A stretch of 32,326 nt of DNA. Origin: Streptacidiphilus neutrinimicus (GTDB lineage Bacteria > Actinomycetota > Actinomycetes > Streptomycetales > Streptomycetaceae). Of this stretch, positions 6,126 through 29,426 are shown piece after piece. The notes under the pieces were generated by a model. It saw only the letters and a program-made list of their open reading frames with translations, had not been told where the DNA came from and did no database searches. Position 1 is the first letter of the stretch. Each line of letters opens with the position of its first letter. The DNA lies in NCBI RefSeq assembly GCF_000787815.1, contig NZ_BBPO01000045.1, positions 1-32,326 on the forward strand. The letters run 5' to 3'. The position numbers and the translations under genes are program-made.

Positions 6126-6370
6126 GAGCGAGCGCGCACCCTGACTTTTGAGGACCAGCCGGTCGTAACGGCCCTCCAGTACCTCCAGCGAGTTCCTCCG
6201 CCGAATCGGTCGCGAGCTGGCCCGGACGGTGCTGATGACCGCCGAGGGCGACTGGGACATTCCGTACTCGGCTTCGATCCGGAGGCCGATCGAAGTGGTG
6301 CTGACGGCGGATCCGACGCTCCCGGGCGACCGACCGTTGTGGCCCGAGAGCTCCCGGGTCTCTGCGCCGC
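6126..6370 (+). pseudogene. Unrecognised coding remnant with a frame change
   Basis: The 374-bp gap between the NAT start and the RbpA-like stop looks partly coding on the plus strand. One frame gives LTFEDQPVVTALQYLQR (6141-6191). The next frame then gives EFLRRIGRELARTVLMTAEG and DWDIPYSASIRRPIEVVLTA (6190-6309). Third codon positions across 6181-6360 are almost all G or C by eye. The first frame begins after a TGA at 6123-6125, and no start codon or ribosome-binding site is evident. I do not recognise the family. It may be the remains of a small gene. Chance is the alternative. Confidence 0.28.
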
Positions 6371-6372
6371 GG

Positions 6373-6400
6373 AGCGGCGGGCCACGCATGGCCCGCCGCT
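6373..6400 (-). terminator. Terminator of the RbpA-family gene
   Basis: An 11-bp perfect stem (AGCGGCGGGCC / GGCCCGCCGCT) with a 6-base loop starts 11 bp beyond the stop of the minus-strand gene. The arm sequence is symmetric, so it could also work on plus-strand transcripts. Confidence 0.75.
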
Positions 6401-6411
6401 TTCCGTGGGCG

Positions 6412-6750
6412 TCAGAAGTTCCCGCGCAGTTTGGCGAGGGCCTCGTTGAGGAGGATCTCGCCTTCCTCCTGGCTGCGGCGCTGGCGCACGTAGCCCATGT
6501 GCGTCATGTAGGGGGCGTTGGTCTCGGCGGCCGGGGTGTTGTCCCGGTCCGGGCCGGCCGGAAGGCCGCACTTCGGGCAGTCCCAGACATCCGGGACAAC
6601 TGCCTCGATCGCGAAGCTGGGCTGGCTGTGGTGACCGTTGCCGCACCAGAACGAAGCCACGACGCGGGGGGCGAGGTCCCCACGCTCCGGCTCCCCCAAC
6701 GGCCCCGAGCCGATACGAGCGCCCCTGATGCCGGTCCGTCCCTGTGCCAC
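6412..6750 (-). CDS. RbpA-family RNA polymerase-binding protein
   Basis: RbpA binds actinobacterial RNA polymerase and group 1/2 sigma factors, stabilising open complexes and promoter binding. This 112-residue protein has the family core: GDLAPRVVASFWCGNGHHSQ, PDVWDCPKCGLPAG and a basic/acidic C-terminal helix HMGYVRQRRSQEEGEILLNE, which is the sigma-contacting part. The zinc ligands are Cys36, His40, Cys58 and Cys61. Start is GTG 6748-6750 after GAGGAG. It differs from the classical RbpA in lacking the long YETDRG segment and in the AKLRGNF terminus, so it is more likely the second paralogue (RbpB-like) than the main one. It is monocistronic between a promoter-like site and a terminator. Confidence 0.87.
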   Translation of the reverse strand: MAQGRTGIRGARIGSGPLGEPERGDLAPRVVASFWCGNGHHSQPSFAIEAVVPDVWDCPKCGLPAGPDRDNTPAAETNAPYMTHMGYVRQRRSQEEGEILLNEALAKLRGNF

Positions 6751-6803
6751 GTTCGTTCTCCTCGGCCACGATGTCCACGCCTCGGATGAGCATGGGAAGG
6801 GCC

Positions 6804-6831
6804 AGCCTACGGCCATCAGCCGCTGATGCAA
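6804..6831 (-). promoter_or_regulatory. Candidate promoter of the RbpA-family gene
   Basis: On the minus strand TTGCAT, a 16-base spacer and TAGGCT resemble HrdB -35 and -10 boxes. The -10 lies about 54 bp upstream of the GTG. Pattern evidence only. No SigR-type GGAAT/GTT pair was seen. Confidence 0.4.
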
Positions 6832-6950
6832 CCCTCGCCCCCACCGGAGGGCCACTTTTGCGGCGAGGGGCCGAACGCGGCCGTTCTCGTCGGGACGGCG
6901 CGGATCCCACCCGTTCGTGCGGCACGGCCACCTGCGGGCGGGCAGGCGTG

Positions 6951-6988
6951 CGGCCGTGGCCGGCCCCTTTCGGAGCGGGCCACGGCCG
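6951..6988 (-). terminator. Terminator of the phosphoesterase gene
   Basis: CGGCCGTGGCC and GGCCACGGCCG form an 11-bp perfect stem around a 16-base loop that can fold further. It begins 8 bp after the phosphoesterase stop. Confidence 0.7.
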
Positions 6989-6995
6989 TCAGGGG

Positions 6996-8633
6996 TCAGG
7001 AGACGGCCAGGGCCGTGTCGTCGATGACGAAGCTGGTCTGGTTGCCGGCGTTCTCGCTGCCGGTGAACTTCAGCGTGACAGTCTGGCCCGCGTAACCGGC
7101 CAGGCTGAAGGAGTGTTGGGTGTATCCGGTGTTGGCGTTCAGGTTCGAGTACGTCGCCAGGGTGCCGAGCACCGTGCCGGAGCCGTTGAGAACCTGGACC
7201 TTCAGGGTGTCGTAGGCCGTGGTCTTCGTGGTCTCGGCGGTGTCGACGTGCAGCCAGAAGGAGAAGTTCTCCGCGCTGCATCCGGCCGGAACGGCTACGG
7301 ACTGCGACAGGGTGTCGGTGTGGGTGCTGCCGTAGCCGTCCAGCCAGGCGTCCCAACTGCCCGAACGGGCGGGCTCGGACGAGTCGTTGCTGATGACGCC
7401 GGAGGAGGCCCTCCACGGGGAGGCGGCGCCGGTCTCGAAGCCCGGGTTGCCCAGGAGCTGCGCCGCGGTGCATCCGCCGCCGCCGCTGGGGTTGACGGTC
7501 CAGGTGAAGGACGCGGAGCCCGACGCCGTCCCGGAGGAGGCGGTGACGGTCACGTTCGAGGTCCCCGCCGTGGTCGGGGTACCGGAGATCAGACCCGACG
7601 GCGACATGCTCAGGCCCGCCGGAAGGCCGACCGCCGAGTAGGTCAGCGCGTTGCCCGCCGAGTCGGTCGCGGCGACCTGCAAGGACGCCGCCGTGCCGAC
7701 GGTGCCGGTCTGGCCGCCGGGGTTGGTCACCGAGACGGTCTCGGCCGCAGAGCCGCCCCACACGTCGGTGATCGGCGTGGCCGAGGCCGCGGCACCGGCG
7801 TACGGCAGGCCGTACATGTCCTCGATGGTGCGCAGCACGTTGTAGTGGTTGACGGTCTCGCTGTACTGACCGGCCTTGACGCCCGCGCCGTAGAAGATGG
7901 TCGGGATCTGGTTGCTCATCGAGGAGTCGTCCTCGTCCCAGGTGACCACGAGCAGGCTGTTGTGGGTCTTCGCCCACTGCGCGTAGGCGTCGACGTTGTT
8001 CTGCAGCCAGGTGTCGCCCTCGGCGATGGTGCCGTCGTGCATGTCGTCGTTGAGGTTGGGGATGACCCACGAGACCGTCGGCAGCTGCGTGAAGTCGCTG
8101 GGGAAGCTCGTGAACGGCCGGTTGTCAGCGGCCGGGATGTTGCTGAAGTCGCTCCACGGCACGTGCTTGCGCGCATACGAGCCGGAGGTGCACGAGGTGG
8201 AGCCGGTGGAGGGCAGGTCCTCGGAGTAGCCGGCGAAGGTGTCGCCCGCGGCGAGCAGTTGGGCGCCCTCGTTGTCGGCGCTGAACGTGTGCGGGCAGGA
8301 GTCGTCGGTGACGCCCTGGTTGGAGCCCGAGAACAGGTCCAGGTAGTTCGGCTGGGAGGGGTGCTCGACGGCGAAGGACTGGGTGAACAGCGCGCCGCCG
8401 GAGGCCAGGGTGTTGTTGATGTACGGAGCGTCGGCGGTGTCGCCGATGACCTCGTCGTAGGCGTGGTTCTCTTCCATCACGACCACCACGTGGTCGTACT
8501 TCGGCACGCTGTTGGCGGCGTGCGCGGGGGCGACGGCAGCCGTCATGCCGGTGGCTGCCAGCGCGGCACCACCGAGTAACGCGAGGCTCAGGCGCCCGAG
8601 GCGCTTCTTGACGGTGGTGGCGACTCGACTCAC
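6996..8633 (-). CDS. Secreted phosphoesterase (PF04185 type) with Ig-like and CBM-like domains
   Basis: A 545-residue exported enzyme of the alkaline-phosphatase-like phosphoesterase family (acid phosphatase / phospholipase C relatives). Residues 1-40 are a signal peptide (VKKRLGRLSLALLGG to APAHA). The catalytic domain (45-300) has HVVVVMEENHAYDEVIG, SQPNYLDLFSGSN, SWVIPNLNDDMHDG and LLVVTWDEDD, which carry metal and phosphate ligands. Residues about 310-400 are a putative Ig/cadherin-like domain (LPAGLSMSPSGLISGTPT). A short Gly linker leads to a C-terminal beta-sandwich (LLGNPGFETG to SFVIDDTALAVS) like carbohydrate-binding modules, probably for wall or polymer binding. Start GTG 8631-8633 has AAGGAGA eight bases upstream; the longer reading to 8693 has no such site. 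PHO-box-like repeats upstream suggest phosphate control. The substrate is not predictable. Confidence 0.9.
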   Translation of the reverse strand: MSRVATTVKKRLGRLSLALLGGAALAATGMTAAVAPAHAANSVPKYDHVVVVMEENHAYDEVIGDTADAPYINNTLASGGALFTQSFAVEHPSQPNYLDLFSGSNQGVTDDSCPHTFSADNEGAQLLAAGDTFAGYSEDLPSTGSTSCTSGSYARKHVPWSDFSNIPAADNRPFTSFPSDFTQLPTVSWVIPNLNDDMHDGTIAEGDTWLQNNVDAYAQWAKTHNSLLVVTWDEDDSSMSNQIPTIFYGAGVKAGQYSETVNHYNVLRTIEDMYGLPYAGAAASATPITDVWGGSAAETVSVTNPGGQTGTVGTAASLQVAATDSAGNALTYSAVGLPAGLSMSPSGLISGTPTTAGTSNVTVTASSGTASGSASFTWTVNPSGGGGCTAAQLLGNPGFETGAASPWRASSGVISNDSSEPARSGSWDAWLDGYGSTHTDTLSQSVAVPAGCSAENFSFWLHVDTAETTKTTAYDTLKVQVLNGSGTVLGTLATYSNLNANTGYTQHSFSLAGYAGQTVTLKFTGSENAGNQTSFVIDDTALAVS

Positions 8634-8691
8634 GGAAGATCGTCTCCTTCGACTGTCGGGTGGTGGCGGGACGCGCGCAGCCCCACACGGC

Positions 8692-8721
8692 ACGGTAGGG
8701 GTACTGGCGAGTACCTGTCAG
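8692..8721 (-). promoter_or_regulatory. Candidate phosphoesterase promoter
   Basis: CTGACA, an 18-base spacer and TACCGT on the minus strand, about 60 bp before the GTG start. It directly follows the PHO-box-like repeats. Confidence 0.45.
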
Positions 8722-8726
8722 GATGC

Positions 8727-8748
8727 TGTGAATGAAGCCATGCTGAAC
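8727..8748 (-). promoter_or_regulatory. PHO-box-like pair of 11-bp direct repeats
   Basis: On the minus strand GTTCAGCATGG is followed without a gap by CTTCATTCACA. Two adjoining 11-bp units with a TTCA core are the layout bound by PhoP in Streptomyces (consensus starting GTTCA). The pair ends five bases upstream of the candidate -35, the position expected for PhoP activation of a phosphatase gene. Confidence 0.45.
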
Positions 8749-8887
8749 GTCCGACGGCTGTGTCGCACTCGCCGTGGTGACGCACCTCGGGACCCTGAGA
8801 CGGCATCAGTGAAGGATCAGGGACGGCTCAGGGCAGTCCCCGATGGTCGGCCGACTCCGGGCCGGCGGAGACTGAACGTGCGGCGAC

Positions 8888-8914
8888 GGGGCCGCCCGTA
8901 CCGCCAGCGGCCCC
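8888..8914 (-). terminator. Terminator of the PadR-MMPL operon
   Basis: GGGGCCGC and GCGGCCCC form a perfect 8-bp stem with an 11-base loop, starting 6 bp after the MMPL stop. Confidence 0.6.
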
Positions 8915-8920
8915 TGAGGT

Positions 8921-11038
8921 TCACGGGCGGGCGTCGTGGTCGGCAGCGGGGCGCGTGGCGGGCGCGGGGGTTCCCGACTCGCGGATCGCCACGCGCCGGT
9001 GGAGTCGCTCGAGCCACGCCGGGGCCCACCAGTTCCAGCGGCCGAGCAGGGCCATCAGGGACGGCACGAGGAGTGCGCGCACGATGAAGGCGTCGATCAG
9101 CACGGCGACGGCGACCCCGATCCCGACTTCCTTGAGGAAGACGAGCTTCGAGGTGGCGAAGACCCCGACGGCCACGGCGAGCAGGATCGCCGCCCAGGTG
9201 ATCAGCCTGCCGGTGCGCTGCATGCCCGCGGCGATGGCGTCGCGTTCCGAGACCCCGGGCCGCCGCTCCTCGCTGATCCGCGCCAGCAGGAACACGCCGT
9301 AGTCCGTCGACAGGGCGAACGCGATGGCGGCCACGATCAGGAAGTCGGTTTCCTCGATGCCGCCCTGGCTCGTGTAGGCGAGCGGCCCGGCCAGACGTCC
9401 GTCCTGGAAGACGAAGACCAGGATGCCGGTGGCCGCGGCGGCGGTGAGGCCGTTCATGAGCAGGGACTTGATCGGAAGGATCACCGAGCCGGTCATCAGC
9501 CACAGCACCAGCAGGGTGACGGCGCACAGGATCGCGATGGCGGGCGGCAGCGCGCCGGCGATCGAGGTCCCCTGGTCGACGAAGGACGCGGTCGTCCCGC
9601 CGACGAGGACGGGGACGGGAGCGGGCTGCGCCCGGATCGCGCGCACGGTCTGCTGGGCCGCCGGAGAGATCGGGTCGTTCGGGCTCACGAGCATGATCTG
9701 CCATGTCCCGGGCGCGAGTTGGACCGGAGGGCCGGATGCGGTGACTCCGGGCGCCCGTGCCAACCCCTCCGCGTAGCCCGCCAGCGCGGGCCGGTCGGAG
9801 GCCGGGGCCCGGGCGACGACCGTGATCGCGTTGCCGCCGCTTCCCACGGTGAACTCACTGGCGACCCGGTCCGAGACCACCCGCGCGCTCTGGCTCGTGG
9901 GAAGGACCGTGGCGTCGATGCCGCTCCAGCGCACGCTCAGGGCGGGCGCCGCCATCAGCAGCAGCAGTGCGGTCGTGGCGGTGGCGACGAGCACGGGTCG
10001 GCGCATCACGCCGCGGGCCAGCCGGTACCAGGCCCCGCCCTGCGTGGAGGGCTTGACCCGGCCGAGGCGCCTGGCGAGCAGCACCAGCAGCGGCGGCACG
10101 ATGAGCAGGGCGCTGGCTGCCGCGACGAGCGCCACCATCGCGCCGCCGATGCCCATCGAGACCAGGAACCGCTGCGGGAAGACGGTCAGGCTGGCCAGCG
10201 CGGCCGCGACCGTGGTCGCACTGAAGGCCACGGTGCGGCCGGTCCTCGCGAGGGTCGACCGCAACGCGGTTTCCACGTCGCCGCGCTCCTGCAGTTCCTC
10301 CCGGAAGCGCCAGACCAGGAACAGGCTGTAGTCGACGGCGAGCCCGAGGCCGAGCCCGATCACCAGGTTCAGGGCGAAGATCGACAGTGGCAGTGCGAGG
10401 TTGACCAGCCGCAGCACGACGAACGTGCCCAGCACGGCCATCCCGCCGACGGCCAGGGGCAGCAGCGCCGCGATGCCCCGGAAGATGACAAAGGCGAGGA
10501 TCGCCAGCAGCGGGAAGGCGATCGCCTCGGCGAAGCCGAGGTCCGCCTGCGCCTGCTTGCCGGTCTGCGTCCCGGCGACGTCGGGGCCGCCCAGCAGCAC
10601 GTCGGACCTGCCGTGCAGGGTGGCCTCGATGTGTTTGACGACCGTGTCCGGGTCGGGTGCGGCGCTGAGCGTCGCGACGACCAGCGAGGAGCGGCCGTCG
10701 GTCGACACCAGTCCGGTCTCGCGCCCCGGCGTGGGTGCCGTGACCGCGGCGACGCCCGGGACCCGGGCGATCTCCCGCGCGGCCGAGGCCACCGCCGGGG
10801 TACCCGGCGGCGCGGACACCAGCGCCAGCACGCCGGGGCTCGGCTCCCGCCCGGTGGCCTGCTCGACGAGCTGCTGGGCGCGGGCGCTCTGGGACGCGGG
10901 GTCGCTGAACGGCTCGCGGGCGTTGAGCATGCCGACCGCGGGGGCCCCGAGCACGGCCGCCACCAGGAACGCGACCAGCGCGAGCAGCAGCATCCGGCGT
11001 GGATGCCGGATCGCGGTGCTCGCGAGTGCGCCGAGCAC
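8921..11038 (-). CDS. MMPL-family RND transporter
   Basis: A 705-residue inner-membrane exporter of the MMPL group, which moves lipids, drugs or siderophores using the proton gradient. It has the duplicated layout: an N-terminal helix (MLLLALVAFLVAAVLG), an extracytoplasmic porter domain (about 35-160), a helix bundle with GLGLGLAVDYSLFLVWRFRE, then a second helix, second porter domain and bundle with FALSTDYGVFLLARI. The two D-Y-x-x-F/Y signatures are the proton-relay sites of the family. The C-terminal tail is hydrophilic. Start GTG at 11036-11038 lies one base after the PadR stop, so translation is probably coupled. The neighbouring PadR regulator suggests an inducible drug or metabolite efflux pump. 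The substrate is unknown. Confidence 0.93.
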   Translation of the reverse strand: MLGALASTAIRHPRRMLLLALVAFLVAAVLGAPAVGMLNAREPFSDPASQSARAQQLVEQATGREPSPGVLALVSAPPGTPAVASAAREIARVPGVAAVTAPTPGRETGLVSTDGRSSLVVATLSAAPDPDTVVKHIEATLHGRSDVLLGGPDVAGTQTGKQAQADLGFAEAIAFPLLAILAFVIFRGIAALLPLAVGGMAVLGTFVVLRLVNLALPLSIFALNLVIGLGLGLAVDYSLFLVWRFREELQERGDVETALRSTLARTGRTVAFSATTVAAALASLTVFPQRFLVSMGIGGAMVALVAAASALLIVPPLLVLLARRLGRVKPSTQGGAWYRLARGVMRRPVLVATATTALLLLMAAPALSVRWSGIDATVLPTSQSARVVSDRVASEFTVGSGGNAITVVARAPASDRPALAGYAEGLARAPGVTASGPPVQLAPGTWQIMLVSPNDPISPAAQQTVRAIRAQPAPVPVLVGGTTASFVDQGTSIAGALPPAIAILCAVTLLVLWLMTGSVILPIKSLLMNGLTAAAATGILVFVFQDGRLAGPLAYTSQGGIEETDFLIVAAIAFALSTDYGVFLLARISEERRPGVSERDAIAAGMQRTGRLITWAAILLAVAVGVFATSKLVFLKEVGIGVAVAVLIDAFIVRALLVPSLMALLGRWNWWAPAWLERLHRRVAIRESGTPAPATRPAADHDARP

Positions 11039-14401: not shown

Positions 14402-15904
14402 TCAGGGCGCGCACCGGAGGGCCAGCCACACCGCCTTGCCCTCCCCCGTGGCCCTGGTCCCCCAGCGGGCGGCGAGCGAGTCGACCAGGCGCAGGCCGCG
14501 CCCCGACTCCTCCGCCTCCTTGGCGTGGCGGGCGCGTGGCAGGAAGGGGCTGCCGTCGCTGACTTCGAGGCCCAGCTCCCCGTCGGCGAGACGCAGGCGG
14601 ACCCGGATCGGGCCGCAGGCGTGGCGGACCGCGTTGGTGACCAGCTCGGAACAGAGCAGCGCGGCGGTGTCGACGACGTCGGAGGTGCAGGCCCAACGGG
14701 CCAGCGCCTCGCGCAGGAAGCGCCGGGCCGCGCCCGGCGCGGTCGGGTCGGCCGGCAGGTCGGCCGACTGGGCGGCCTGCGCGGGCTCGGGGATCCGGGC
14801 GAGCAGCAGCGTGACGTCGTCGCCGTAGTCGTCCGGGGCGGGCAGGATGGACGTGAGGATCTCGTCCGCCGCGCGTTCCAGGTCGTCGTCCTCGGCCAGG
14901 AACTTCTTGAGGCTGCGGGCCAGGCCGTCGATCTCGGCCTGAAGGTCGCCGAGGGGCGTCTCGACGAGCCCGTCGGTGTAGAGGGCGAGCACCGAGCCCG
15001 CCGTCACGGGCAGGGTGACCTGCAGGTGCGGCACCTCGCCCACGCCGAGCGGCACGCTGACGGGGACGTCGAGGATCCTCGCGTGCTGGCCCGGCTCCAC
15101 CAGCAGCACGGGCAGATGCCCGGCCGAACAGAGCGTCAGCTCCCCCGCGTCGGCGTCGAGCACCAGGTAGCAGCAGGTCACCAGTTGGTCCGGCAGCTCC
15201 GCGACGACGGCGTCCAGCGCCTGCATCAGCTGCCACGGCGCCATGCCCGTCTTGGCCAGGGCGTGCGCCGCCGAGCGCAGTTGGCCCATGACGGCGGCGG
15301 CCTCCAGGCCGCGGCCCATGACGTCCCCGATGAGGATGCCGACGCGGCCGGCGCCGAGCGGGACGAGGTCGAACCAGTCGCCGCCGACCCCGGCGCCCTG
15401 CCGCGCCGGCAGCCAGCGGGCCGCGGTCACGACTCCCGGCACCGGCGGGGGCGAACCCATCAGGCTGCGCTGCAGGGTGAGCGCGACGTGGCGCTGCTGC
15501 TCGTAGAGCCCGGCCAGCGCCGCCTCGACCGCCTTGCGGTCGCTGACGTCCCGGATCGCGGCGGACAGCAACGTCCCTTCGGCGGTCTCCAGCGGGCTCA
15601 GGCTGATCTCGACGGGGAACTCGTCGCCGTTCTTGCGGAGCCCGAAGAGGTCCAGGCCCGCCCCCATGGGGCGGACCCGGCGGTCGGCGACGTAGCGGCG
15701 GCGATGGCCCGCGTGGGCCCGGCGGAACCGCTCGGGGACCAGGACCTCCACGGGCGCGCCCAGCAACTCCTCGCGGCAGTAGCCGAACAGCGCCTCGGTC
15801 TGCGCGTTGACCAGCGCGATCAGGCCCTCCCGGTCGCAGATGACCATCGCGTCGGGCGCTGCCTCCAGCAAGGCCCGGAAGGTCTTCTCCGTCGTCGTCC
15901 CCAC
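14402..15904 (-). CDS. PAS - SpoIIE phosphatase - HATPase regulatory protein
   Basis: A 500-residue cytoplasmic signalling protein. Residues 8-130 form a PAS domain ([39 protein letters not shown]). Residues about 150-355 are the PP2C-like SpoIIE/RsbU domain with [40 protein letters not shown] and [10 protein letters not shown], carrying the metal-binding aspartates. Residues 380-500 are an RsbW-like HATPase ([45 protein letters not shown]). Such proteins dephosphorylate anti-anti-sigma factors and may also bind or phosphorylate them, tying a sensed signal to SigB/F-type sigma activity. GTG start 15902-15904 was chosen for the GAGGCGG before it and because the PAS begins eight codons later. 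The target partner is not adjacent. Confidence 0.92.
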
Positions 15905-15967
15905 GGCACCGCCTCTTGCTCCGAACCAGCTCCCGGCCTCCGAGCGGCCATTGGAGCACGACCCCGC

Positions 15968-15981
15968 ACGGCATATGCCGT
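15968..15981. promoter_or_regulatory. Perfect palindrome, candidate operator of the PAS-SpoIIE gene
   Basis: ACGGCATATGCCGT is a perfect 14-bp palindrome 64 bp before the GTG start. It would lie at about +2 to +15 of the candidate promoter at 15990-16017, where a bound protein would block transcription. The regulator is unknown. Confidence 0.5.
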
Positions 15982-15989
15982 CGTGTCGG

Positions 15990-16017
15990 ATATTGGCCGC
16001 AAGCCCTCCGTTTTCAA
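15990..16017 (-). promoter_or_regulatory. Candidate promoter of the PAS-SpoIIE gene
   Basis: TTGAAA, a 16-base spacer and CAATAT on the minus strand, in a short AT-richer patch between the NRPS stop and the phosphatase gene. Pattern evidence only. Confidence 0.35.
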
Positions 16018-16067
16018 CCGACGGGGTGCTGTCCTCGACCTTTCCGGATGGTGTCACCGCACGACGG

Positions 16068-19000
16068 TCACCAGCGGGCGACCGGGTTGCCCAGCCAGCG
16101 ACCGTGGTCCGGGACCGACTCGCCGCGCATGACCAGCGAGGACGGGCCGACCACCGTTCCTTCGCCCAGGCTCGAGCCGGGCAGTGCGATCGCGTGCGGA
16201 CCGACCGTCGCCCCCGCGCCGACCGTGACCTCGTCCATCCGCATGAGGCGGTCGTGGAAGAGGTGCGTCTGGACCACCACACCGCGGTTGAGGGACGCCC
16301 CGTCGCCGACGCGGACCAGGTCGGTCTCTGGGAGCCAGTGCGTCTCGCACCACACGCCGCGGCCGATGCGCGCGCCGAGCGTGCGCAGCCAGAGGGCGAG
16401 GAACGGGGTGCCGATCAGCGAGCTGGCCAGCCAGGGCATGGCCAGCACCTCGACGAAGGTGTCGAAGAGCTCGTTGCGCCACACGAAGGAGCTCCACAAC
16501 GGCTGCTGCCCGACCCGGAACCTGCCGACCAGCAGCCACTTCGCCGCGGTGGTGAGCAGGCAGGCGGCGGTCCCGCAGCCGAGCATCAGCGCCCCGGCCA
16601 CCAGCACGCACACCGTCAGCCCGGAGGCCGTCAGCCCGCAGACGTCGAACGCCTTCTGCAGCAGCAGCACCGCGACGTCCGCGAGGAGGGCGCTCGCCAG
16701 CACCGGCGCGGTGCGGCAGAGCTCCACGGCCGCGCGGGCCCACACCAGGCGGCGCGGCGGCTCGTAGGTGCGCGCGGTCTCCGCCTGTTCGGGGTTGCGG
16801 TGCAGGGGGAAGCCGGGGCGGCCGAGCCAGGAGCCGCGGGCCGCGGCCTGCGCGGGCGCGTCGGACAGCACGCCGACCAGGGCGTCGTCGGCCAGGCCCC
16901 GGCCCGGCCCGACGATCGCGGAGTTGCCGACGAACGCGCGCCGGCCCACGGTGGCGACGCCCAGGCGCAGCCAGCCGCCGCGCGTCTCGAACGGGGCCAG
17001 CAGCGAGTCGTCGGCGAGGAACGCCTGGTCGTCGACGTGCATCAGGCCGGGAAGTCCCAGCACCGTCGAGGCCTCCACCCGGCGGCCCACCCGGGCGCCG
17101 AGCAGGCGTAGCCAGGCCGGTGTCAGCAGGCCCGCGTAGAGCGGGAAGAGGGTCCGCCGGGCGGTGTCCATGAGCCGGTGCACCAGCCACGCGCACCAGG
17201 CCACCCTGCCGTGCGCGGGGTGGGTGCCGGGGACGAGCGGGCGCGAGAGCAGCCGCACGGTGGCGGCCAGGACCAGCGCGTACAGCACCGCGGTGACCAG
17301 GACCAGCGGCACGGTCAGCTCCACGACCCGGGCGCTGACCACGCCGAAGTCGGCCGTGTGCCCGACCGTCAGGTAGAGCGCCCACAGGGCCGGGGCCGCG
17401 GCGAGCAGCGGCAGCAGGGAGAGCAGCGGCAGGGTGGCGGCGTAGGCGGCCGTCCAGCGCCGGGAGCGACGGTGGTGCGGGGCCGGCCACGGGGCGAGCG
17501 GCGCGGTGTGGTCCGGCCTGGCCGGGGAGCCGTGCACGCGCTGGTGGGCGGGCACGGCGCCGTTCACGCAGCTGCCCGGTGCGACATCGGCGCCCTCGCC
17601 GACGTCCGCGCCCGGCATCAGCATGCTGCGCGTGCCGACGCGCGCCCCGGCGCCGACCCGGACGGCGCCCAGGTGGAGCACGTCGCCGTCGAGCCACCAG
17701 CCGGCCAGATCGGCCTCCGGCTCCACGGAGCAGCCGTCACCGAAGTCGGCGAGGCCGGTGACCGGCGGCATGGCGTGGAGGTCGACGTTCGCCCCCACCC
17801 GGCAGCCGAGCATCCGGGCGTAGCGGGGCGCCATCGGGGTGCCGATCACGGAGGCGATGTTGAATCCGGCCGCGACCCGCTCGGCCGTCCACAGCCGCAA
17901 GTGCACCAGTCCGCCGCGCGGGTGAGTGCCCGGTCGCAGACGGGCCGTCAGCGCCCGTGCGCTCAGCACGCCGACGGTGGCGCGCCCCGGCGAGCTGGAC
18001 AGCAGCAGCCAGCCCGCGCCGATCAGCCACCAGGAGGTGTGCACGGTCCAGGGCAGCGGGCCGATCAGGTCGTCCAGTGCGGCCAGTACGAGCACCCACT
18101 GCAGGCCGGACAGGACCGAGAGCGCCGCCAGGACCCCGGCCTGGTACGCGCCGACCAGCCGCGAGGTGGGACGGACCTCGCGGCGGTCCCCGGTCGGCGC
18201 GGCCACCTCGTCCAAGCGCCGGGCGAACTCCCCCAGCCGCGGGCTCTGGTACAGGTCGGCGACGCCGATCCCCGGGTGGCGGTCGCGCAGCGCGGAGATG
18301 AGCCGGGCGGCGCTCAGGCTGCTGCCGCCCAGGGCGAAGAAGTCGCTGTCGGCGTCGACCGGGACGCCGAGCAGCTGGTGCCACCGTTCGGCCAGCCACC
18401 GCGCGGTACCGGTCAACTCAGGACCCGTGCCCGGCGGTTCGTCGGCGGTCGGCAGCGGCCAGGGCAGGGCCGCGCGGTCGACCTTGCCCGAGGTCCTGGT
18501 GGGCAGTTCGGGAAGCACCGCGAGGACCGGGACCAGGGCTGCGGGCAGGCGTTCCAGGAGTCGGCGGCGACCGTCCGCGCGGTCGAACGGCGATGCGGAG
18601 TCCTCCGGGACCAGGTAGCCGACCAGGATCTGGCCGCCCGCCGCCGTGCTCTTGACCGACGCGGCCGCCGCGCGGACGCCGGGCAGGGCCAGCAGCGCGG
18701 CCTCGACCTCGCCGAGCTCGATCCGGCGCCCACCCAGCTTGACCTGGTCGTCGGCGCGCCCGACGAAGACCAGGCCCTCCGGATCGGCGCGGACCAGGTC
18801 GCCACTGCGGTAGACGCGCTGGCCCGGCAGGGCGGCATGGGAGCGGAACTTGGCCCGGTCCTTCTCCGCGTCGAGGTAGCGCGCCGTACCGACGCCCGCG
18901 ATGAGCAGTTCGCCGGTGCCGCCCCAGGGGACCTCACGGCCCTCCGGATCGACGACCGCCACCTGCCAGCCGGCCAGCGGGTGGCCGATGCGCACCGGCT

Positions 19001-25559: not shown

Positions 25560-25631
25560 CGTGCTGCGGTTCGAAGCCGTCACTTCGCGGGAGACTTGAG
25601 GGAATCGCACCGGGAGAGGACATCGCGCCGC

Positions 25632-27473
25632 ATGGCTGATTCACCTTTGCTGTCCCTGCGCGGCGTCTCCAAGCGCTTCGGCGCCGTACGAGCGCTCGTG
25701 GACGTCGACCTCGACGTGCGAGCGGGCGAGGTGGTGGCCGTCGTCGGCGAGAGCGGCGCGGGCAAGTCCACCCTGGTCCGGGTGATGGCGGGCGTCGAAG
25801 CGCCGGACAGCGGCACCGCCACGTGGTGCGGCGACCCCCTGGACCTGCGCAGGCCGCGGGCCTTCCGGCGGCTCGGCGTGGCCGCAGTCCACCAGGACCA
25901 GCAGCTGTGCCTCAATCTCGACGTCATCTCCCAGCTCTTCCTCGGACGGGAGTTGCGCCGCTTCGGGCTCCTGGACGAGGTCGGCATGGAGCAGCAGGCA
26001 CGCGAGCTGCTGGACCGTCTGCAGGTGCGCCTGGCCGACCTGCACGCCCCGCTGGCGGCCCTGACCGCCGCGGAGCGTCAGTCGGTCGCCATCGCGGGGG
26101 CGCTGATCGACAGTCCGAACCTGCTCCTGCTGGACGAGCCCACGGCCGGGCTCGACCCCCAGCAGAGCGCGCTCCTGCTCCGGCTGGTACATCGGCTGCG
26201 CCGCAGCCGGATGGGGATCGTGCTGGTCAGTCACAACATCGACGACGTGCTGGAGGTCGCCGACCGCGTCGCCGTGCTCCGCCTGGGCCGGAACACGGGG
26301 GTCTTCGAGACCCGTTACGCCAGCCAGGAGCAGATCGTCTCGGCCGTGACCGGCAATCAGATCCTCGCCGCCGCGCTGCAACGCAGCCTGCTGCCGCTGG
26401 ACCTGCCGAAGCTCGAGACCGTTGACACGGCCGTCCGCTACCTCCCGGCGCAGTCCGGCGCGGGCGGCGACTGGTTCGACGTCATCCCGCTGTCCGGCGC
26501 CCGGGTCGCCCTGGTCGTCGGCGACGTGGTCGGCCACGGCCTCAGCGCCGCCGCGACGATGGGACGGCTGCGCACGGCCGTCCACAACGTCTCCCATCTC
26601 AACCTCCCTCCCGCCGAGCTGCTCGCCCATCTGGACGACGTCGTCAGCCGCCTGGACGAGGAACGCGGGGCCGCGGGCGGGCACAACGACATCATCGGCG
26701 CCACCTGCGTCTACGCCGTCTACGACCCGGTCGCCCGGCAGGTGGCGCTCGCCCGCGCCGGGCACGTGCCGCCGCTGCTGGTCCAACCGGACGGCAGCGC
26801 GGCCTTCGTCGACGTCCCGGCCGGACCGCCGCTGGGCCTCGGCGGGATGCCCTTCGAGGCGGTCGAGCTGCCACTGCCGGACGGCGCCCAGCTCCTGCTC
26901 TACACCGACGGCCTGGTCGAGCGCCGCGACCGCGACATCGACGCCGGACTGGACCGGCTGCGCAGTGCGGTCCGCCAGGAGGGGGACTCCTCCCCCGCCC
27001 GCCTGTGCGACGCCGTCGTCTCCGCCCTGCTACCCGACGACGAGGCCCGCGAGGCGGCCGACGACGTCGCCCTGCTGGTCACCCGGGCCCGCGGGCTCCC
27101 CGCCGACCACGTGGCCTGCTTCGACGTCCCCGAGGACCCGGCGGCGGTCGCCGAGGTCCGCGCCAAGGCGGCGCGTCAGCTGCACCGTTGGAACCTCGAC
27201 GACCTCGCGTTCACCACCGAGCTGATCCTCAGTGAGCTGATCACCAACGCCATCCGCCACGCCTCCGGCCCGATCACCGTCCGGCTGCTCCGCACCCGTT
27301 CCCTGGTCTGCGAGGTCTCCGACGGCAGCAGCACCGCGCCGCACGTGCGCTACGCGGCCAGCACGGACGAGGGCGGGCGCGGTCTGTTCCTGGTGGCCCA
27401 CATGTCGGAGCGCTGGGGCACCCGCTACACCGACCGGGGCAAGATCATCTGGACGGAGCAGCGCCTGCCCTGA
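25632..27473 (+). CDS. Fusion of sugar-type ABC ATPase, SpoIIE phosphatase and RsbW-like HATPase
   Basis: A 613-residue protein with three modules and no membrane segment. Residues 5-240 are an ABC nucleotide-binding domain of the ribose/xylose importer type: Walker A GESGAGKST (Lys45), Q-loop near 88-90, degenerate signature LTAAER (144-149, normally LSGGQ), Walker B LLLLDEP with Glu169, H-loop His201. Residues 245-485 are a PP2C/SpoIIE domain with GGDWFDV (Asp280), VGDVVGHG (Asp298), YTDGLVE and ADDVALLV. Residues 500-610 are HATPase_c_2 with SELITNAIRHASGP, VSDGSS and GGRGLFLVAHMSERWG. There is no PAS or GAF sensor: the ABC cassette takes that place. ATG 25632 follows GAGAGGA at a long spacing; TTG 25596 is an alternative. 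No permease gene adjoins it. It probably controls an anti-anti-sigma factor in response to ATP or a transporter partner (inference). Confidence 0.92.
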   Translation: MADSPLLSLRGVSKRFGAVRALVDVDLDVRAGEVVAVVGESGAGKSTLVRVMAGVEAPDSGTATWCGDPLDLRRPRAFRRLGVAAVHQDQQLCLNLDVISQLFLGRELRRFGLLDEVGMEQQARELLDRLQVRLADLHAPLAALTAAERQSVAIAGALIDSPNLLLLDEPTAGLDPQQSALLLRLVHRLRRSRMGIVLVSHNIDDVLEVADRVAVLRLGRNTGVFETRYASQEQIVSAVTGNQILAAALQRSLLPLDLPKLETVDTAVRYLPAQSGAGGDWFDVIPLSGARVALVVGDVVGHGLSAAATMGRLRTAVHNVSHLNLPPAELLAHLDDVVSRLDEERGAAGGHNDIIGATCVYAVYDPVARQVALARAGHVPPLLVQPDGSAAFVDVPAGPPLGLGGMPFEAVELPLPDGAQLLLYTDGLVERRDRDIDAGLDRLRSAVRQEGDSSPARLCDAVVSALLPDDEAREAADDVALLVTRARGLPADHVACFDVPEDPAAVAEVRAKAARQLHRWNLDDLAFTTELILSELITNAIRHASGPITVRLLRTRSLVCEVSDGSSTAPHVRYAASTDEGGRGLFLVAHMSERWGTRYTDRGKIIWTEQRLP

Positions 27474-27479
27474 ATCGTC

Positions 27480-27556
27480 TGTCAGCGGTTTGTCAGCGGG
27501 GTCTGTCAGCGTTTCGTCAGCGGCGACGGCGCCGTATCAGCGCGCTGTCAGCGGGG
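27480..27556. promoter_or_regulatory. Three pairs of 11-bp direct repeats (SARP/OmpR-type operator)
   Basis: Six 11-bp units with consensus TGTCAGCGGnn start at 27480, 27491, 27504, 27515, 27535 and 27546. Each pair is exactly in 11-bp register; pairs are set apart by 2 and 9 bp. This is the layout bound by winged-helix regulators of the OmpR/SARP class. The last unit ends 17 bp before the DrrA-like ATG. CACCTT (27562-27567), eight bases after the last core, could be a weak -10, which would give a nearly leaderless mRNA. Confidence 0.75.
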
Positions 27557-27573
27557 TCCGGCACCTTGAGGGC

Positions 27574-28593
27574 ATGACGCGAACCGACAAGAACCCCGAA
27601 TCCGGCCGCCCGGTGGCCGTGTCCGTGCGGGGGCTGGTCAAGCACTTCGGCGAGACCAAGGCGCTCGACGGCGTGGACCTGGACGTGCACGAGGGCACCG
27701 TCCTCGGTGTCCTCGGCCCGAACGGCGCCGGCAAGACCACCCTCGTCCGGTGCCTGTCCACCCTGATCACGCCCGACGCCGGCCAGGCCGTCGTCGCAGG
27801 CTACGACGTGGTGCGCCAGCCCCGGCAGCTGCGCCGGGTGATAGGCCTCACCGGTCAGTACGCCTCGGTGGACGAGAAGCTCTCCGGCCGGGAGAACCTG
27901 TACCTCATCGGCCGACTGCTGGACCTGTCCCGCAAGGAGGCCCGCTCCCGGGCGGACGCGCTGCTGGAGCGGTTCTCGCTCACCGACGCCGCGACCCGGC
28001 CGGCCCGCACCTACTCCGGCGGCATGCGCCGCCGCCTCGACCTCGCCGCGTCGATGATCGGTCGGCCGCACGTCCTGTACCTGGACGAGCCGACGACCGG
28101 GCTCGACCCCCGCACCCGCAACGAGGTGTGGGCCGAGGTCACCCACATGGTCCGCGAGGGCGTGACCGTCCTGCTGACCACCCAGTACATGGAGGAGGCC
28201 GAGCAGCTGGCCTCCGAACTGACCGTCATCGACCGCGGCCGGGTCATCGCCAACGGCGGGATCGACGAGCTCAAGGCCAAGGTCGGCGGCCGCACCCTGC
28301 GGATCCGTCCGGCCGACCCGCTGCAGCTGCACCCGCTGGCGCAGGCCCTGGAGCAGCACCGGCCAGGCGGCCCCGTCCCCGCCGTCCCCACCGAGTCCGG
28401 CGAGGTCCTGGTGCCGATCGTCAGCGACGACCAGCTGACCGCCGTCGTCGCCGAGGTCACCGCCCGCGGCGTCACCATCGGCTCGATCTCCGTCGAGCTG
28501 CCCAGCCTGGACGAAGTGTTCCTGTCTCTCACCGGTGAGAAGGCCTCCGCTCCCCAGCAGGCCGCGCCGGAGCTCGAGGAGGTCGCCGTATGA
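27574..28593 (+). CDS. ABC exporter ATP-binding protein, DrrA family
   Basis: A 339-residue ATPase of the daunorubicin-resistance (DrrA) family that powers drug, lipid or antibiotic export with an ABC-2 permease. Motifs: LGPNGAGKTT (Walker A), LTGQYASVDEKLSGRENL (Q-loop and DrrA-typical segment), YSGGMRRRLDLAASMIGRP (signature), VLYLDEPTTGLDPR (Walker B) and LLTTQYMEEAEQLA (H-loop replaced by Gln, as is common in DrrA-type proteins). The C-terminal region (about 245-330) with GVTIGSISVELPSLDEVFLSLTG is characteristic of the family. ATG 27574 was chosen because homology starts soon after and GAGGG lies just upstream; a start at 27490 would run through the operator repeats. The stop overlaps the permease start (ATGA). 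Confidence 0.93.
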   Translation: MTRTDKNPESGRPVAVSVRGLVKHFGETKALDGVDLDVHEGTVLGVLGPNGAGKTTLVRCLSTLITPDAGQAVVAGYDVVRQPRQLRRVIGLTGQYASVDEKLSGRENLYLIGRLLDLSRKEARSRADALLERFSLTDAATRPARTYSGGMRRRLDLAASMIGRPHVLYLDEPTTGLDPRTRNEVWAEVTHMVREGVTVLLTTQYMEEAEQLASELTVIDRGRVIANGGIDELKAKVGGRTLRIRPADPLQLHPLAQALEQHRPGGPVPAVPTESGEVLVPIVSDDQLTAVVAEVTARGVTIGSISVELPSLDEVFLSLTGEKASAPQQAAPELEEVAV

Positions 28594-29426
28594 GCACCGC
28601 CACCCTGTCCCCGACGGCCCCCACCATCACGATCGAGGCCGACCCCAAGATCAGCCTGCGCGGCCATATCCGCCACACCGGCGCGCTGATCCGCCGCAAC
28701 CTGCTGTGGATCAAGCAGGATCCGGAGTCCATGATGGACGCGGTGCTGATGCCGGTCATCTTCACCCTGCTCTTCGTCTACGTCTTCGGCGGCTCGATCG
28801 GACAGGCGCTCGGCGGCGGTCAGAGCGCGTACGTCCAGTACGTGATCCCGGGCATGGTCGCGATGATGAGCATGAACATCGCGCAGGGCGTCGGCACCGG
28901 CTTCAACGAGGACTTCAACAAGGGCATCATGGACCGCTTCCGGTCCCTGCCGATCGGGCGCGGCTCCGTGCTGGTCGCGAAGATCTCGGTGGAGCTGGTC
29001 CGGCTCCTCGTGGCCGTCACGATCCAGATGGTCGTCGCGCTCCTGGTCGGCTTCGACATCAACGGCCACTGGCTCGGCCTGCTGGCGGCCGTCGGGCTGA
29101 CGGCGCTGTTCGGCTCCGCCATCATGTGGATCTTCCTGGTCCTCGGCGTGACGATGAAGAACGCCCAGTCCGTCCAGGCGATGGGCTTCCTGGTGATGAT
29201 GCCGCTGCAGTTCGGGTCGTCGATCTTCGCGCCGACCAACTCGATGCCGGGCTGGCTGGAGAGCTTCACCAAGTACAACCCGATGTCCGGCCTCGCGGAC
29301 GCCTCCCGCGGCCTGATGACCGGCGGCCCGATCGCCCACGGGCTGACCGTGACGCTCGCCTGGACCATCGGTCTGACGCTGGCCATGGCCCCGGTGGCGA
29401 TCCGCAAGTTCACCCGGAAGGCCTGA
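28590..29426 (+). CDS. ABC-2 type exporter permease, DrrB family
   Basis: A 278-residue integral membrane protein partnering the upstream ATPase. After a cytoplasmic N-terminus with HIRHTGALIRRNLLWIKQDP (coupling helix region) come six predicted helices: PVIFTLLFVYVFGGSIG, MVAMMSMNIAQGVGTG, LVRLLVAVTIQMVVALLVG, LGLLAAVGLTALFGSAIMW, MGFLVMMPLQFGSSIF and LTVTLAWTIGLTLAMAPVAI. The FVPTNSMP-like element appears as FAPTNSMPGWLESFTKYNPM, typical of DrrB-like permeases. The ATG overlaps the ATPase stop, so both subunits are co-translated. Exported substrate unknown. The gene converges on the AfsR-like regulator, separated by a 15-bp minisatellite. Confidence 0.93.
   Translation: MSTATLSPTAPTITIEADPKISLRGHIRHTGALIRRNLLWIKQDPESMMDAVLMPVIFTLLFVYVFGGSIGQALGGGQSAYVQYVIPGMVAMMSMNIAQGVGTGFNEDFNKGIMDRFRSLPIGRGSVLVAKISVELVRLLVAVTIQMVVALLVGFDINGHWLGLLAAVGLTALFGSAIMWIFLVLGVTMKNAQSVQAMGFLVMMPLQFGSSIFAPTNSMPGWLESFTKYNPMSGLADASRGLMTGGPIAHGLTVTLAWTIGLTLAMAPVAIRKFTRKA

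Follow-up and report, generated by a model that had tools for sequence, protein, structure and literature searches.

A putative sigma-control switch bearing a captured sugar-importer ATPase domain in the Streptomyces family

Known switches and the layout of the fusion protein

The general-stress phosphatases RsbU, RsbP, OsaC, and Rv1364c carry a PPM phosphatase behind an N-terminal input domain. According to the accessible part of one account (PMC12143880), the input domains of RsbU-type proteins are RsbU-N, PAS, GAF, response receiver, and HAMP domains; RsbU becomes active when its linkers are ordered and bring its phosphatase domains together as a pair, an arrangement that recurs in dimers predicted with PAS, GAF, receiver, and HAMP sensors, and PPM phosphatases are proposed to take exchangeable sensors through the shared dimeric linker. 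In SpoIIE, a helical switch controls the active site (PMC5468089, accessible part). The term “ABC” has 0 occurrences in the main text of PMC12143880, and no ABC-SpoIIE fusion was described among the matches listed in the mostly non-subscription literature that we searched by titles and abstract starts.

The protein considered here resembles these phosphatases in its order of parts, except that its N-terminal domain is an ABC nucleotide-binding domain (NBD). It is encoded in the window, by which we mean the whole stretch of Streptacidiphilus neutrinimicus DNA that was analyzed (32,326 nucleotides). Translation gives one intact protein of 613 amino acids (aa) with no interruption, in which a CUT2-type (sugar importer) NBD is followed by a SpoIIE/RsbU phosphatase and then by an RsbW-like HATPase, as follows.

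25632..27473 (+): ABC NBD-SpoIIE phosphatase-HATPase fusion gene; ATG start, TGA stop; 613 aa
25612..25631 (+): purine-rich upstream stretch, likely a ribosome-binding site, judged from its likeness to five relatives of the same genus
25644..26351 (+): ABC NBD of the CUT2 single-NBD type, residues 5-240 (Pfam, NCBIfam, tree, model, Foldseek)
25746..25772 (+): Walker A GESGAGKST, residues 39-47; K45 and S46 in 35/35 fusion members
26061..26081 (+): degenerate ABC signature LTAAERQ, residues 144-150; second Gly in 6/35 fusions versus 21/21 solo NBDs
26121..26144 (+): Walker B and catalytic Glu, LLLLDEPT, residues 164-171; D168 and E169 in 35/35
26226..26240 (+): H-loop region, residues 199-203, with His201; His in 27/35 fusions versus 21/21 solo NBDs
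26325..26396 (+): joint, residues 232-255, last NBD helix (232-240) into first phosphatase helix (243-253) plus an SLLP motif (alignment, model)
26364..27089 (+): SpoIIE/RsbU-type PPM phosphatase region, residues 245-486 (Pfam 289-486; GGDWFD in 35/35)
27129..27449 (+): RsbW-like HATPase, residues 500-606, N-box SELITNAIRH (Pfam; invariant residues in 23 aligned members)

The open frame extends 5' of the ATG to a TTG at 25596, but the same-genus relatives L011 to L015 (L015 being cut by its contig end) preserve the ATG together with the purine-rich bases ahead of it. A promoter scan gave nothing notable.

The initial annotation had described a single-chain ABC-SpoIIE-HATPase fusion, and this description stands: ABC_tran (residues 24-172, E 1.1e-25), SpoIIE (residues 289-486, E 2e-54, 184.9 bits against a cut-off of 25), and HATPase_c_2 (residues 500-606, E 2.3e-13, 50.7 bits against 27.4) all exceed their curated Pfam cut-offs, and every NBD, PP2C, and HATPase motif that had been named is present in the translation (GESGAGKST, LTAAERQ, LLLLDEPT, and SHN in the NBD half; GGDWFD, YTDG, DDVALLV, and SELITNAIRH in the phosphatase and HATPase half). 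In NCBIfam, the NBD comes closest to the first halves of the CUT2 sugar ATPases YtfR, XylG, AraG, and RbsA, in every case with a score far under the equivalog cut-off.

By its Pfam domain and metal-site motifs, the central region can be classed as a SpoIIE/RsbU PPM phosphatase, GGDWFD and TDG being the motifs of the metal site. GGDWFD is present in 35/35 fusion members and TDG in 32, the window protein included; the other three have TNG, so that some members may have altered metal binding. The C-terminal region can be assigned to the RsbW-like HATPases by HATPase_c_2, the N-box Glu/Asn, and the glycine-rich boxes; E535, N539, D564, and GGRGLFLV are invariant across 23 aligned members. An AlphaFold2 monomer model built from these 23 members (mean pLDDT 81.3, pTM 0.60) places helices at residues 232-240 and 243-253, such that the last NBD helix would lead within a few residues into the first phosphatase helix, with low confidence at the joint itself (pLDDT 63-65 at residues 231-250). 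The best Foldseek match of the model is the RsbU-RsbW unit of Rv1364c (3ke6, E 1.2e-23), and the next are ABC ATPases, LptB among them.

Distribution and origin of the fusion

The same architecture was recovered in at least 6/14 genomes of the genus, counting the window's own (relatives 83 to 92% identical), and in at least 52/394 genomes of the family, representing 4/17 genera; both counts are lower bounds set by the threshold of E 1e-175. Overall, fusion relatives are 58 to 92% identical, and the 53 family matches run nearly end to end on the query except in G121 (2-447) and G002 (1-599, at a contig end). Among the matches listed, carriers include Streptomyces fildesensis (L027), Actinacidiphila epipremni (L028), A. 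cocklensis (L030), and Streptomyces sp. NBC_00572 (L029, 58% identity).

In a sample of the class (394 genomes, 138 genera, E 1e-140), the sole full-length match was the window's own, the remaining rows matching the phosphatase-HATPase half. In a sample of the phylum (396 genomes, 237 genera), a profile spanning the joint (E 1e-32) was matched over positions 1-214 by the window alone, and other matches lay on the NBD side (~1-118) or the phosphatase side (~109-214). Three candidates per genome were scored for the class and seven for the phylum, so weakly similar fusions could be missed. Among the 56 plasmid records with a match (E 1e-60), none covered 80% of the query. Within the class and phylum samples, the fusion thus looks restricted to the Streptomyces family.

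One apparent full-length match, in Streptomyces antimicrobicus (L102), was rejected as a fusion: positions 6303-10835 of that locus hold a GAF-SpoIIE-HATPase gene, 45 bases, and then a separate gene for a double-NBD CUT2-like ATPase. Similar functions therefore lie side by side in this species as unfused genes.

A tree of 61 NBDs placed all 35 fusion NBDs in a single clade (100/99) that nests within the single-NBD CUT2 subunits, the solo NBDs L189, L190, and L192 being its sisters (97/90) and the window's genus having a long stem (0.66). Single-NBD CUT2 ATPases of this clade include L114 and L115, and the window NBD is 56% identical to solo L114. The nested position argues for descent of the fusion NBD from CUT2 single-NBD subunits. 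The phosphatase-HATPase halves gave the same picture: among 93 of them, the fusions were one clade (98/97), in a tree whose bootstrap had not settled and whose 58 non-fusion rows were every second locus of L031-L106 together with L102, L002-L010, and L017-L026. Both trees carry long-branch warnings. The 35 fusion rows used throughout are a subset of the family matches. One clade in the trees of both halves is most simply explained by one fusion, between a single-NBD CUT2 subunit and the phosphatase/kinase half of a SpoIIE-HATPase protein.

Among the nearest non-fusion relatives of that second half are two Streptomycetaceae proteins (L017 and L019) whose phosphatase and HATPase are 65 to 68% identical to approximately residues 240-613 of the fusion. 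Unlike the fusion, they have no NBD and instead carry sCache_3_2, PAS, and GAF domains ahead of SpoIIE (Pfam). By eye, L002 (a paralogue in the window's own genome, likewise lacking an NBD), L003, and L031 look similar, and the more distant L102 relative, also without an NBD, has GAF domains and no sCache. The sCache domain is usually an extracytoplasmic sensor. Most simply, then, a longer sensor front was swapped once for the NBD. The initial annotation had placed the NBD where SpoIIE phosphatases normally have their sensor, and the architecture of these relatives agrees; the position fits an ABC cassette recruited as an input domain. From these comparisons, we conclude that the fusion is genuine and conserved and most simply has a single origin.

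Retained and drifted residues of the nucleotide-binding domain

Across the 35 fusions, Walker A K45/S46, Q-loop Q88, Walker B D168, and the catalytic E169 are all kept in 35/35. The ABC signature motif forms part of the composite ATP site of an NBD dimer and helps to close that dimer on ATP, and here the fusions differ from solo CUT2 NBDs, which retain both LSGGQ and the H-loop His in 21/21 cases (the solo set left out the ill-aligned L195 and the more distant L116, L117, L119, and L120). At the second signature Gly, the fusions have Ala (26), Gly (6), Ser (2), or Glu (1), and at the H-loop position His (27), Pro (7), or Asp (1). The degenerate signature noted initially is indeed present in the window as LTAAERQ, which is the form of the window's genus; the other fusion members mostly have LSGAQRQ (12) or LSAAQRQ (7), LSGGQRQ occurs in 6/35 overall, and drift is greatest in the window's genus. 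A CUT2 importer subunit would be expected to combine LSGGQ with the H-loop His, and the window protein has LTAAE with the His present.

Compared with solo NBDs, fusion NBDs showed an entropy excess of 0.555 bits in the signature, Q, D, and H loops versus 0.109 bits over all sites and 0.008 bits in Walker A, while residues 206-240 were more conserved in the fusions (-0.208 bits). The loop excess was reached by 4/236 circular shifts; this result is indicative only, because the loop set was chosen after the residue counts had been seen and because the fusions and the solo NBDs do not span the same phylogenetic range. Nucleotide binding looks kept in the fusion NBD and the catalytic cycle relaxed, and the fact that the catalytic Glu never varies suggests that hydrolysis may retain some importance.

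We therefore favor, tentatively and at a probability of roughly 0.45, a reading of the protein as a sigma-control switch with a captured sugar-importer NBD as its sensor, that is, an RsbU-type switch with a nucleotide-binding input. The NBD would no longer be a transport motor and would bind ATP or read ATP/ADP; NBD-NBD pairing or a change in NBD shape would set the helix at residues 232-255; and two phosphatase domains would then adopt the paired, active arrangement described for RsbU, RsbP, and SpoIIE. Once active, the phosphatase would dephosphorylate a STAS anti-anti-sigma factor, and the C-terminal HATPase may act as kinase of the STAS factor and/or as an anti-sigma factor. A wider formulation, in which the NBD sets the phosphatase directly, either through its bound nucleotide or through its docking on a sugar permease, giving a one-protein readout of energy or sugar transport that evolved once in the Streptomyces family, seems to us an even bet. 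Of the two inputs, ATP reading appears the better, with the caveat of the drifted signature: a textbook ATP-closed homodimer may not form, which keeps the rival explanations alive.

Gene neighborhood and competing explanations

Under the first of these rivals, the NBD would retain its docking to a CUT2 sugar permease, whose working state would set phosphatase activity; we consider it unlikely, though worth serious attention. Several features are consistent with it. The NBDs of L027 to L030 are, over the aligned part, 57 to 67% identical to L114, the solo CUT2 NBD of this genome. An intact Walker A/B with a degenerate signature also occurs in NBD1 of double-NBD CUT2-type proteins (LPVPLRQ, LSVERRQ, and LPVGVQQ; LAPAERS in L102), a likeness that makes an asymmetric pair with a canonical NBD conceivable. 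Perhaps, in such a variant, the fusion is one of two NBDs and its intact Walker A/B site is completed by the LSGGQ of a canonical solo NBD at its side. A docked NBD could also stand in for a sensor such as the sCache domain of the two close phosphatase-side relatives, and service in trans has a parallel in MsiK, a streptomycete ATPase encoded apart from the permeases that it serves (PMC4890002, accessible part).

Against docking, gene neighborhoods lent no support to the permease link that had been proposed. No CUT2 permease or binding protein was found at E 1e-8 in the flanks of 41 fusion loci, searched with three sequences of this genome (two permeases and one binding protein) over up to ~10 kb per side (less at contig ends), and the one CUT2 NBD match under E 1e-30 in those flanks lay 8 kb off, in L204. 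Each of the 13 PF02653 permeases identified in the genome, whether of amino-acid or sugar type, has an NBD gene within ~3 kb. Solo L114 to L116, unlike the fusion, adjoin a PF02653 permease gene; in these searches, no sign was found that the fusion is encoded with a permease or is the sole ATPase of one, as would be expected of a CUT2 importer subunit. The H-loop His is lost in 8/35 fusions. Groove sites that face the permease (placed by general NBD anatomy) and are invariant in solo NBDs (20 rows, L187 with its disrupted N-terminal reading also being left out) are 83% kept outside the genus, which agrees with docking, but this retention, 71% within the genus, is unremarkable beside most other regions of the domain.

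The statement that no permease adjoins the gene survives for a sugar importer, although a transporter of another type does: a DrrA-like ATPase and an ABC-2 membrane protein lie directly 3' of the fusion at 27490-29426 (+), and likewise in G006. They look like an ordinary exporter pair.

A functional tie to a glucose/gluconate operon, also suggested initially, was rejected. Upstream of the fusion in the window are gluconate-kinase-like, zinc dehydrogenase, GH15, and G6PD genes, the first name being a guess, since the gene at 20494-21030 matches only SKI and AAA in Pfam. The whole four-gene block precedes the fusion in 1/10 other fusion loci compared, that of the nearest relative G006 (92%), and in 0/9 of the rest: G012, G001, G002, G018, L027, L028, L029, and L030 have no gene in common with it, and in G010 (L109) a distantly homologous GH15 gene (39%) lies ~4 kb from the fusion.

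A second rival, which we judge quite improbable, is that the NBD mainly binds another protein, such as a STAS substrate or a neighboring phosphatase, with ATP in a purely structural role. The combination of invariant ATP-binding residues and relaxed catalytic loops fits a static nucleotide, and in MlaF-MlaB a STAS protein, MlaB, binds an ABC NBD (PMC7367683, accessible part); MlaF-MlaB is, however, a transporter subunit without a phosphatase and serves as an analogy only. Among the 41 fusion loci, no neighbor conserved across the family was found. The commonest neighbor cluster, SpoIIE-like genes, was seen in 8/41 loci with a crude GC-based gene caller, and a tblastn recount placed another SpoIIE domain in the flanks of 16/41, adjacent in 13. 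On the same strand, an adjacent SpoIIE gene accompanies 10/40 fusion loci versus 4/66 non-fusion SpoIIE-HATPase loci, these being raw counts from loci that are not independent. With strand ignored, such neighbors are common in the controls too (12/66 versus 13/40), and the window's own locus has no adjacent SpoIIE gene.

The same-strand genes lie directly upstream of the fusion in L199, L204, L206, L210, L222, and L223 and directly downstream in L027, L197, L198, and L203; the one in L027 reads GAF-PAS-GAF-SpoIIE with no HATPase match. A role for these neighbors as partner phosphatases is possible. In the window, a second protein of sigma-control type (PAS-SpoIIE-HATPase) is encoded ~9 kb from the fusion at 14402-16282 (-). 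In L107 (G006), the nearest relative, the fusion is closely preceded by a weak SpoIIE match (E 8.9e-10) on the other strand and followed by a 364-aa gene, and the window has no room for either at the corresponding places.

It is very unlikely that the NBD is a decaying passenger of a chance fusion, kept by inertia while the phosphatase works without it. The signature and H-loop drift would suit this idea, as would the fact that, in most of the 35 members, the NBD is less conserved than either of the other domains, and in 14 hand-chosen pairs its dN/dS exceeded that of the phosphatase in 10. Yet NBD values were below 1 in all 14 pairs (0.11 to 0.50, with 0.04 to 0.42 for the phosphatase and 0.08 to 0.48 for the HATPase), which points to an NBD maintained under purifying selection, slightly less tightly than the phosphatase; the Walker A K/S and Walker B D/E are invariant, and the fusion is held in four genera. 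An assembly error or frameshift joining two genes, which the initial annotation had named as a refuting condition, is vanishingly improbable: 35 aligned members, drawn from separate genomes, share the joint with not one gap over residues 205-261.

The reading that we prefer, an RsbU-type switch with a nucleotide-binding input, describes what appears to be a known kind of switch bearing a sensor that was not described in the literature searched, as far as titles and abstract starts tell. How ABC NBDs pair under the drive of ATP is well understood, and this fusion family is therefore a natural test of the exchangeable-sensor idea, with an input that can be controlled in vitro. The sequences suggest an unusual route for feeding ATP or transport status into gene control, by way of a transport motor turned regulator whose intermediate signature forms, LSGGQ, LSGAQ, LSAAQ, and LTAAE, are found in living relatives.
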